This document shows, piece after piece, positions 54,554 through 57,150 of a DNA stretch of 64,000 nt; within the stretch, counting starts at the first letter, position 1, and every line of letters starts with the position of its first letter. The notes beneath the pieces were generated by a model, which saw only the letters and a list, made by a program, of their open reading frames with translations, was not told where the DNA came from and made no database searches. This DNA comes from a gamma proteobacterium HIMB55 (GTDB lineage: Bacteria; Pseudomonadota; Gammaproteobacteria; Pseudomonadales; Halieaceae), in the NCBI GenBank assembly GCA_000227505.4, contig AGIF02000001.1, forward strand, positions 2,376,035 to 2,440,034, read 5' to 3'. The position numbers and the translations under genes were made by a program.

Positions 54554-55429
54554 TCAGGCGAGCATTCCCGTTCGGAGCTTCTTCATGGCGTTGCTCTCGA
54601 GCTGACGGATGCGTTCGGCCGATACACCATACTCATCGGCCAACTCGTGTAGCGTTGCTTTCGGCTCTGATAACCAGCGGCGAGCAACAATATCGCGGCT
54701 CCGCGCGTCCAGGGAAGACAAGGCCTCGGACAGCTGGTTTTCCTCATGCGCAACGTAATCAGCAGACTCGACAACCATAGCGGGGTCCATCGACTGATCT
54801 TCAAGGTATTGCTGAGGCGCCTGCCATGCCGATTCCTCATCAGCATCAACTGGCATATCAAACGCCACATCACGGCCGGATAACCGACTTTCCATGCGGG
54901 TCACTTCCGCAGGGTCGACACCCAGATCCTCTGCAATCGCTAGAGTCTCGGCTTCGGTGAGCCAATGCGTACCCGTTTTCTGGCTACGCAGATTAAAGAA
55001 CAACTTGCGCTGCGCTTTTGTAGTAGCCACTTTGACGATACGCCAATTTTTCAGAATGTACTCGTGCATCTCGGCTTTTATCCAATGCACGGCAAAGGAA
55101 ACAAGGCGAACACCTTTGCTTGGATCAAAACGCTTTACCGCCTTCATCAAACCAACGTTACCTTCTTGAATAAGATCAGCTTCCTGCAAGCCATAGCCTG
55201 AGTAAGAGCGCGCTACATGCACTACAAATCGTAGGTGAGCAAGTACTAACTCACGTGCAGAGTCAACGCAGTTCTCATAAAAAAGTCGTTCAGCAAGTTC
55301 TCTTTCACGCTCAATCGAGAGAATTGGGATAGCGCTGACTGTCTGTACATACGCGCCGAGATTGGCCCCGGGCGCCATGCTAAGAACGGCACTTGGTGAC
55401 AATGCGACTGCTGTATTGGTATCTGACAT
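54554..55429 (-). CDS. rpoH: RNA polymerase heat-shock sigma factor (sigma-32)
   Basis: Directs RNA polymerase to heat-shock promoters. Region 2: [41 protein letters not shown], with region 2.4 ending [13 protein letters not shown]. The RpoH box ([19 protein letters not shown]) is clear. Region 4 is [37 protein letters not shown] 55429 is the start (AGGAG upstream). 291 residues. It follows ftsX as in E. coli. A perfect CIRCE operator sits just upstream, so HrcA control is expected on top of the usual controls. Confidence 0.97.
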
Positions 55430-55455
55430 ACGCAAAACTCCTAAACTGGCTACGA

Positions 55456-55485
55456 ATATTAGCACTCTTGCCTTGAGAGTGCTAA
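55456..55485 (-). promoter_or_regulatory. rpoH promoter overlapped by a CIRCE operator
   Basis: Read on the minus strand, TTAGCA (55485-55480), an 18-base spacer and TAATAT (55461-55456) form a plausible sigma-70 promoter. The whole stretch is covered by the CIRCE element at 55459-55485. Transcription would start near 55449, giving a leader of about 20 bases before rpoH. Confidence 0.6.
55459..55485. promoter_or_regulatory. CIRCE element (HrcA operator), perfect 9-9-9
   Basis: TTAGCACTC (55459-55467), nine bases, GAGTGCTAA (55477-55485): a perfect match to the consensus TTAGCACTC-N9-GAGTGCTAA. It lies between the ftsX stop and the rpoH start, 29 bases upstream of the rpoH ATG. CIRCE is the binding site of the repressor HrcA, which GroE keeps active. 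Confidence 0.95.
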
Positions 55486-55510
55486 TTCACCCAAAAGTTC
55501 CGCCTACAGC

Positions 55511-56470
55511 CTAACGTGGCTGAATGCGCGCCAAGTGGAGTTGAACGGAGTAGCAGGCGCTTATCCAACCCAGCACCGAGCCCACAACAACTAGCAATAC
55601 AAGATCTCCAAAACCAAATACGGAGACAGCAGCCGAGCGATCATAGAGTTCAAATAGTTGCGAGATCGGCGCGTTCAGCACTTCAAATGTAATGAAGATC
55701 AAAAGCCCTGATACCAGCCCTCCGAGTGCGCCCAATAATGCACCCGTGTATAAGAACGGACGCCGGGCGAACGCGTTGCCGCCACCTATCAATTTGATGA
55801 CAACGATTTCTTCCCTGCGCGACTCGATACCCAGCCGAAGGGTATTACCGAGGGTCAACACGACGCCCAACGCCATTGCCACGCCAGGCGCCAAGGCAAT
55901 GGAGCGTGCTAATCCGATAACCGCCTCGAGCCGCTCAAGCCACCGGCTGTCTAAGATGACTTCCGCAATGCCCGGTAAAGCCTTCAAATCCTGACTCAGT
56001 TGCGCAAGTCCCGCGGAACGGATGTTCGCCGCAGGGTAAAGCCACAACGTATGGGGAAGCGGGTTGCTCTCCATACGGCTCGACAACGCAGACAAACCAG
56101 TAGCCTCGATAAATTCGGTCAACGCTGTATCGCGGTCAATGACCTTTACCGAAGCCACTCCAGGCTGTCGCTGAATTTTTTCGGCCAACCGTTTTGCATC
56201 GTCAAGCGTCAAACTAGCATCGGTCAGGACAGAGAGTTGCGGTGGCGCGTCTAACCGATTGACCTCTTTATTAACGGCGCTCGCCAATGCAAGGCCAAAC
56301 GTTGGGAGCGCAAGCGCAAGCGCAATCACGAAAACCGTGAGCAGATTGGAAATGGGTTCGCGGAAGAGCTTTTCCACACTCATGGCCGCGGCTTCCCGAT
56401 GATGATGCGCCCAAGCGAGGATTCTAGGCCTCGGGCCAGAGCCAACGCCTGCTGGTGACTGTCCCGCCAT
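55511..56470 (-). CDS. ftsX: Cell division ABC transporter permease FtsX
   Basis: An inner-membrane protein that, with FtsE, controls peptidoglycan amidases at the septum. Four membrane helices: one near residues 45-64, then three in the C-terminal half (LAPGVAMALGVVLTLG, TGALLGALGGLVSGLLIFI, DLVLLVVVGSVLGWISA). Between them is the periplasmic domain with LAEKIQRQPGVASVKVIDR. ATG 56470 shares one base with the ftsE stop. 319 residues. Confidence 0.95.
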   Translation of the reverse strand: MAGQSPAGVGSGPRPRILAWAHHHREAAAMSVEKLFREPISNLLTVFVIALALALPTFGLALASAVNKEVNRLDAPPQLSVLTDASLTLDDAKRLAEKIQRQPGVASVKVIDRDTALTEFIEATGLSALSSRMESNPLPHTLWLYPAANIRSAGLAQLSQDLKALPGIAEVILDSRWLERLEAVIGLARSIALAPGVAMALGVVLTLGNTLRLGIESRREEIVVIKLIGGGNAFARRPFLYTGALLGALGGLVSGLLIFITFEVLNAPISQLFELYDRSAAVSVFGFGDLVLLVVVGSVLGWISACYSVQLHLARIQPR

Positions 56471-57150
56471 CAACTCTCACCTCGCACATCATTGTTTAGC
56501 GTGATAAGGCGCCCTTCTTTGAGTGTAAGAATCCTTTGTGACATGCGAGATATCAGCGCCAAATCGTGACTCGCGACGATAACCGTCACACCGACGCTAT
56601 TAAACGCGGCAAACAAACCCATAATCTCAGCCGAAAGTTGCGGATCTAAATTACCCGTCGGCTCATCCGCAATGAGAATTTTAGGTCGCGCAACAACCGC
56701 GCGCGCAATGCCAACGCGCTGCTGCTCACCGCCCGATAACATTTCTGGTGATGCCCGCTCGCGATCTAGTAAACCCACTTTGTCCAAGGCTGCGCGAACG
56801 CGGCGATCAATATCGCGCTTAGTAAAACCCGCTATTTCGAGGGGCAGCGCCACATTGTGAAAGACGGAACGATCGAACAGCAGCTTATGATCTTGGAAAA
56901 CCACACCAAAATCTCGTCGGTATGCCGCGACACCCGACTCTCGGATTTTCGAAAGTGGTCTGCCGTTCACGGAAACCTCGCCCGAGGAAGCGCGATCAAG
57001 TAGGAGTAAAAGCCTCAGTAACGTACTCTTGCCAGCACCCGAGTGCCCGGTGAGAAAGGCCATCTCCCCACTCGCCATATTAAAGCTTAGATCGATAAGC
57101 GCGTCGCGCTGATCAAACCGTTTCCCCACCCGGTCAAAGACGAGATCCAT
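56470..57150 (-). CDS. ftsE: Cell division ATP-binding protein FtsE
   Basis: The ATPase of the FtsEX complex. Walker A is LTGHSGAGKSTLLRLLLLL, the Q-loop FGVVFQDHKLLFDRSVF, the ABC signature LSGGEQQRVGIARAVVARP, Walker B ILIADEPTGNLDP, and the H-loop VIVASHDLALI. 226 residues, as in E. coli. It starts six bases after ftsY and overlaps ftsX by one base: ftsY-ftsE-ftsX-rpoH in the E. coli order. Confidence 0.98.
   Translation of the reverse strand: MDLVFDRVGKRFDQRDALIDLSFNMASGEMAFLTGHSGAGKSTLLRLLLLLDRASSGEVSVNGRPLSKIRESGVAAYRRDFGVVFQDHKLLFDRSVFHNVALPLEIAGFTKRDIDRRVRAALDKVGLLDRERASPEMLSGGEQQRVGIARAVVARPKILIADEPTGNLDPQLSAEIMGLFAAFNSVGVTVIVASHDLALISRMSQRILTLKEGRLITLNNDVRGES

Follow-up and report, generated by a model that had tools for sequence, protein, structure and literature searches.

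The rpoH locus and its operator

The window analysed here is a stretch of 64,000 nucleotides from the gammaproteobacterium HIMB55, whose genome forms one contig of 2.74 Mb. Its minus strand carries rpoH, the gene for sigma-32, and a CIRCE operator, the site of HrcA, lies directly upstream (Table 1). Read along the minus strand, a gene matching ABC_tran, which from its position and from recall we take to be ftsE, is followed by ftsX, the operator and rpoH. The identity of rpoH is supported by a TIGR02392 match of 386.7 bits, over the cut-off, and by matches to Pfam Sigma70_r2 and r4. A GTG start at 55465 in the list of open reading frames would fall inside CIRCE; the rpoH genes of the nearest relatives align from the ATG. 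Among the matches listed, most of the nearest named rpoH loci carry the titles Halieaceae or Luminiphilus.

A sequence-only reading of this locus had claimed a perfect CIRCE upstream of rpoH, and a pattern search bears this out: TTAGCACTC-N9-GAGTGCTAA occurs with 0 mismatches, separated by 25 bp from the stop codon of ftsX and by 29 bp from the ATG of rpoH. It is the sole CIRCE match of the window at up to 3 mismatches, and 100 dinucleotide shuffles of the window yield a mean of 0.03 matches (3 shuffles with a match). The start first proposed for the element, 55456, lies 3 bases outside the palindrome and takes in a -10-like TAATAT (55456-55461, minus strand).

Table 1. Features at the rpoH locus of HIMB55, in window coordinates
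Feature	Position	Strand	Remark
rpoH (sigma-32)	54554..55429	-	291 aa from ATG
Shine-Dalgarno-like GGAG of rpoH	55438..55441	-	
Extended -10 of putative sigma-70 promoter, TGC-TAATAT	55456..55464	-	on the minus strand, the element opens with the last six bases of the CIRCE right arm
CIRCE operator (HrcA site)	55459..55485	.	perfect 9-9-9 inverted repeat, 0 mismatches
Sigma-E-type -10, TCTCA	55474..55478	-	inside CIRCE; one mismatch to TCTRA
Possible weak -35, TTAGCA	55480..55485	-	18 bp from the -10; operator's first six bases
Sigma-E-type -35, GGAACTT	55495..55501	-	
ftsX	55511..56473	-	upstream of CIRCE, co-directional with rpoH

Conservation among named rpoH loci

The named rpoH loci compared with the window are the best 80 of at least 569 relatives; 79 are assessable, L041 being left out for an upstream sequence that is too short. 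CIRCE is found with at most one mismatch at 73 of these 79 loci (66 perfect, 7 with one mismatch), and the best match at the remaining six has 7-9 mismatches, with nothing intermediate. The six loci without CIRCE are titled Marinobacterium (three), Amphritea, Motiliproteus and Nitrincola. Among the genomes tested from this best 80 of at least 569, hrcA is present in 12/12 with a CIRCE at rpoH and in 0/6 without one. Compared loci and genomes are mutually related, and there is overlap between the samples, with one and the same place and score for hrcA in the L053 genome and in G095 of the order sample described below.

Aligning the 73 sites with that of the window gives 74 sites (from the best 80 of at least 569 relatives), 67 of them perfect, that comprise 55 distinct 27-mers. 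The mean majority base is 99.5% in the arms, a figure partly built in because the aligned sites were picked at up to one mismatch, 58% in the spacer, and 38% over the 42 columns from -60 to -19.

Predicted promoters fused to the operator

The operator at rpoH appears to share its letters with a sigma-70 promoter. For comparison, 28 rpoH and 29 groES CIRCE loci were taken from the order and class samples; three loci at neither gene (L102, L150, L165) stand outside this set, and two of the 28 rpoH loci (L093, L095) belong to the same family as the window. At offset +29, three bases past the operator, T stands at 28/28 rpoH sites versus 4/29 groES sites (p 3e-12, post hoc), and likewise at all 74 aligned rpoH sites (best 80 of at least 569 relatives). 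The hexamer that this T closes is TAAAAT in 48 of the 74 sites from the best 80 of at least 569, TAATAT in 10, TAAACT in 7, TAGAAT in 5, TAACAT in 2, and TAAGAT and TAGACT in 1 each. Together with the TGC of the right arm, T+29 forms a predicted extended sigma-70 -10, TGC-TAAnnT, at rpoH. A longer symmetric operator was considered as the cause of T+29 and rejected: the mirror base at -3 is G in 25, C in 25, A in 13 and T in 11 sites (n = 74, best 80 of at least 569), and since the left side is not conserved, T+29 reads as a promoter letter, not an operator letter. One counter-example lies outside the class, at L197, where G319 carries a divergent rpoH-like gene that lacks the T at +29.

The -35 is less clear. 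The sequence-only reading had paired TTAGCA with TAATAT at a spacing of 18, and its -10 is upheld by the closing T, which never varies among the rpoH sites sampled from the order and the class. TTAGCA remains a weak -35, with 4/6 bases of TTGACA; the pair scores 8/12, and a promoter scan at 9 of 12 did not recover it. The invariance of TTAGCA is uninformative because these bases are part of CIRCE. That reading also missed a second conserved promoter, of sigma-E type, over the same operator.

As a separate observation, the groES CIRCE sites have another promoter, with CTTGAC at -28 to -23 and TATNAT at -5 to 0, abutting the left edge of the operator. TATNAT at this edge is found, under a strict match, at 19/29 groES sites versus 1/28 rpoH sites.

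The sigma-E consensus is GGAACTT-N15-17-TCTRA. The window reads GGAACTT-N16-TCTCA, one mismatch from that pattern, with the -10 lying within CIRCE and reading TCTAA in many relatives. A GGAACTT with no more than one mismatch, starting 14-18 bases ahead of the operator, is found at 57/74 sites from the best 80 of at least 569 relatives (null 142 of 28394). In the order and class samples, it occurs in register, within one mismatch, at 18/28 rpoH sites versus 0/29 groES sites. The end of the left arm reads TCTAA or TCTCA in 52 of the 57 GGAACTT loci (best 80 of at least 569), and the other five read TCTCT followed by TCTAA or TCTGA two bases on. GGAACTT with TCTAA or TCTCA is the sigma-E pattern, and its predicted -10 runs from the last bases of the left arm into the first ones of the spacer.

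This second promoter is unevenly distributed. Among the best 80 of at least 569 relatives, GGAACTT with at most one mismatch occurs in 5 of 20 Luminiphilus-like loci (L016-L033, L038 and L039, a group delimited by the author from titles and sequence) versus 52/54 others. With GGAACTT in 5/20 Luminiphilus-like loci and 18/28 wider rpoH sites, the motif is not essential to the design. Several of the 15 Luminiphilus-like loci without it show, by eye, a CTGAAAA...TTTTTCAG dyad just upstream of CIRCE. Of 31 rpoH upstream regions without CIRCE (266 bp; shuffled null 0.2%), a sigma-E-type promoter occurs within one mismatch in 11, 3 of them exact; 10 are at 2 mismatches and 10 at 3 or more. The sigma-E promoter thus does not require CIRCE, and the operator may have been laid over it or lost from it. 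HIMB55 carries an rpoE orthologue (274.2 bits against a cut-off of 236.15), upstream of which TGAACTT-N16-TCATA is seen by eye. Genome-wide, GGAACTT-N15-17-TCTNA has 4 matches and its reversed control 1; the three matches elsewhere (L176-L178) were compared with lists of open reading frames and are not claimed as promoters.

The fixed register of these promoter letters bears on where HrcA would act. Its main effect might be to block read-through from ftsX or from an upstream rpoH promoter and not to silence the local promoters, as could suit an operator that lies 25 bp past ftsX in the same direction. We regard this as improbable, for the rpoH-linked letters keep a fixed distance to the operator, both T+29 and GGAACTT setting rpoH sites apart from groES sites in the counts given above.

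The positions of the predicted promoters also speak to a role for the repeat in RNA, as a hairpin in the 5'-UTR that serves rpoH mRNA stability or translation, or ftsX termination, with HrcA secondary. The repeat can make a 9-bp stem, CIRCE within transcribed leaders affects mRNA stability in Bacillus, and all 7 one-mismatch sites among the best 80 of at least 569 relatives carry A-to-G changes, which would keep a G-U pair. Against this, transcription from either predicted promoter would begin within the repeat or beyond it, leaving the repeat intact in read-through RNA only, and no terminator-like site was found at 55380-55700. In the best 80 of at least 569 relatives, moreover, the loop varies while the stem letters are kept, and CIRCE is absent from the 6 tested relatives without hrcA. 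A primarily RNA-borne function is therefore highly unlikely, and an operator read by HrcA on DNA remains the preferred reading.

HrcA, GroE and sigma-32 partners in the same genome

The other parts of such a circuit can be found in HIMB55. The hrcA gene lies at contig positions 317196-317858 (215.5 bits against a cut-off of 22.2), upstream of grpE. Its product matches the C-terminal domain at 214 bits and the N-terminal winged helix (HrcA_DNA-bdg) at 20.5 bits, half a bit below the Pfam cut-off of 21, and aligns to T. maritima HrcA (1STZ) across residues 5-320. A genome-wide CIRCE scan at up to 3 mismatches finds 2 places, both perfect, at rpoH and at groES. Reversing the pattern as a control likewise produces 2 forward and 2 reverse rows in this genome at up to 3 mismatches, so weight is given to perfect matches only, and loose ones may be chance; with up to 1 mismatch allowed, this control gives 0 in all listed genome rows of the order and class samples. 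A CIRCE at hrcA itself is ruled out by the same scan at up to 3 mismatches.

These results answer the checks proposed by the sequence-only reading, which had named an absent hrcA gene, or an element lost from close relatives amid conserved surroundings, as speaking against it. The gene is there, a second and perfect CIRCE stands at groES, and the element is kept in relatives while its surroundings drift (73/79, best 80 of at least 569), so neither of the two adverse findings was made.

Sigma-32 has predicted outputs in the same genome. The exact sigma-32-type pattern CTTGAAA-N12-14-CCCCAT occurs 3 times, with 0 in the reversed control, and precedes groES, grpE and an Hsp90 gene taken as htpG. 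At groES (L002 1501-1559), an exact CTTGAAA-N13-CCCCAT begins 6 bases after CIRCE. Another exact match (L001 2408-2433) lies between hrcA and grpE, so grpE could be expressed separately from hrcA.

Breadth across order, class and phylum

Counts in the order, class and phylum samples ignore kinship. The order sample comprises 116 genomes drawn evenly, from 43 families: 33 have hrcA, 32 have CIRCE at up to one mismatch, 30 have both and 81 neither (Fisher p 5e-22, calculated without regard to kinship). In 29 of the 32 CIRCE genomes, from 16/43 families, the rpoH match starts 72-224 bp downstream of a CIRCE, and hrcA is detected in 27 of these 29. The join of CIRCE to rpoH was made by eye in the order sample, with distances checked by computation, and was scripted in the class sample. 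Exceptions run in several directions: CIRCE stands elsewhere than at rpoH in 3/32 genomes (G094, G019, G025), hrcA goes undetected in two CIRCE genomes (G014, 96% complete, and G077, 95%), and CIRCE at up to 1 mismatch is missing from three genomes that have hrcA (G007, G047, G076). The last three share one genus, a fourth member of which, G101, has a one-mismatch CIRCE at rpoH.

In the class sample, CIRCE is present in 101/140 genomes. It lies 74-233 bp before rpoH in 30 of the 35 CIRCE genomes listed out of those 101; misses number four or five of the 35, since G131 has a second site beyond those listed. A stricter pattern, CIRCE with T at +29, matched 15/150 genomes of the phylum sample. 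Inside the class, it falls at rpoH in 7/7 matched genomes; outside, the 8 matched genomes carry it at groES (6) or beside an rpoH-like gene (2, G313 and G319), and the rpoH-like genes of those two (L196, L197, L199) are divergent, at 35-38% identity.

Judged from sequence, the rpoH link is the rule among sampled order and class genomes that have CIRCE. The earlier statement that HrcA and sigma-32 usually form separate circuits fits E. coli but not this pattern. The predicted site at HIMB55 rpoH is known here from sequence, in a genome where the control finds chance matches at up to 3 mismatches, yet a non-functional relic or chance palindrome is hardly credible for an element that is perfect in 67/74 aligned sites with 55 distinct 27-mers (best 80 of at least 569 relatives) and that co-occurs with hrcA.

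Proposed mechanism and meaning

We consider it very probable that HrcA represses rpoH in HIMB55, vetoing both promoters and setting GroE status above sigma-32 through an operator fused to the rpoH promoter. Because a CIRCE at the rpoH promoter recurs in many related bacteria, the two heat-shock circuits appear to be wired in series. In unstressed cells with ample GroE, GroE-activated HrcA would bind CIRCE and keep both rpoH and groESL low. Bound HrcA would block two overlapping promoters, an extended -10 sigma-70 promoter whose TGC-TAA closes the right arm of the operator, and a sigma-E promoter with its -10 in the left arm and spacer. Unfolded protein occupying GroE, or heat inactivating HrcA, would derepress rpoH and groESL together, after which newly made sigma-32 would act on the consensus sigma-32 promoters of groESL, grpE and htpG. 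With rpoH and groESL both among its targets, HrcA would form a coherent feed-forward loop, closed by GroE as it reactivates HrcA. With both -10 elements covered by the operator, bound HrcA should keep sigma-E from fully raising rpoH; envelope stress, acting through sigma-E, would have its full effect on rpoH only with HrcA off, which is the least supported step.

Textbook sigma-32 control, based on E. coli, acts mainly on translation, activity and stability. In the sampled gammaproteobacteria with hrcA, GroE status would, through HrcA, also set rpoH transcription, and the operator may in addition exert a veto over the envelope-stress sigma factor. This makes a testable claim on how these marine bacteria rank cytosolic and envelope stress responses, and it bears on what may have been lost en route to E. 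coli. To our knowledge, the heat-shock wiring of Pseudomonas is without HrcA. A wider proposal, which we offer tentatively as a real possibility, is that an HrcA-over-sigma-32 cascade is widespread, perhaps ancestral, in gammaproteobacteria. The right arm of the repressor site, fused with the rpoH promoter, would supply the extended -10, and the sigma-E overlap would turn the site into a three-input rpoH gate for housekeeping, envelope stress and GroE status. The E. coli and Pseudomonas wiring would be what remained after hrcA loss.

Comparison with known systems

The sigma-E component has a familiar counterpart in E. coli rpoH P3, a sigma-E promoter of GAACTT type close upstream of rpoH. Unlike at HIMB55 rpoH, we know of no CIRCE at E. 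coli rpoH P3, and E. coli is not among the hrcA-positive control genomes of the hrcA profile search. The groES CIRCE promoters of the order and class samples share the operator but differ in having a TTGAC/TATNAT sigma-70 promoter that ends at its left edge.

The GroE-HrcA step of the proposed mechanism is carried over by inference from Caulobacter, where, in the portion of the source available, GroESL activity keeps HrcA folded and CIRCE-binding (PMC8119881). In the same portion, Caulobacter groESL is under HrcA and thought to respond to sigma-32 (PMC8119881), a likeness to HIMB55, where groES has both a CIRCE and a predicted sigma-32 promoter. Caulobacter rpoH is not placed under HrcA there, unlike in our reading of HIMB55 (PMC8119881). 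In the available part of a study of 33 regulons in Proteobacteria, HrcA has 0 occurrences (PMC5343134).

A CIRCE upstream of rpoH was predicted in 2004 in Geobacter sulfurreducens (PMC545781), a Deltaproteobacterium and the sole species with CIRCE at rpoH in Table 8 of that paper, which was available in part. In the literature searched, no further report of CIRCE at rpoH was found. According to the accessible sections, Geobacter resembles HIMB55 in having a perfect CIRCE near the rpoH start (at -51 in Geobacter), groESL under CIRCE and an hrcA gene (PMC545781). The two differ in that the Geobacter hrcA operon also has CIRCE, while the HIMB55 sites are those at rpoH and groES only, and in the sigma-E promoter, present at HIMB55 rpoH and not seen for Geobacter in those sections (PMC545781). 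The HrcA-rpoH link itself is of an already known kind. As far as seen, what appears new is how widely the link occurs in gammaproteobacteria, the way it follows hrcA, the fusion of operator and promoter by which rpoH sites can be told, and the sigma-E promoter that overlaps the operator.
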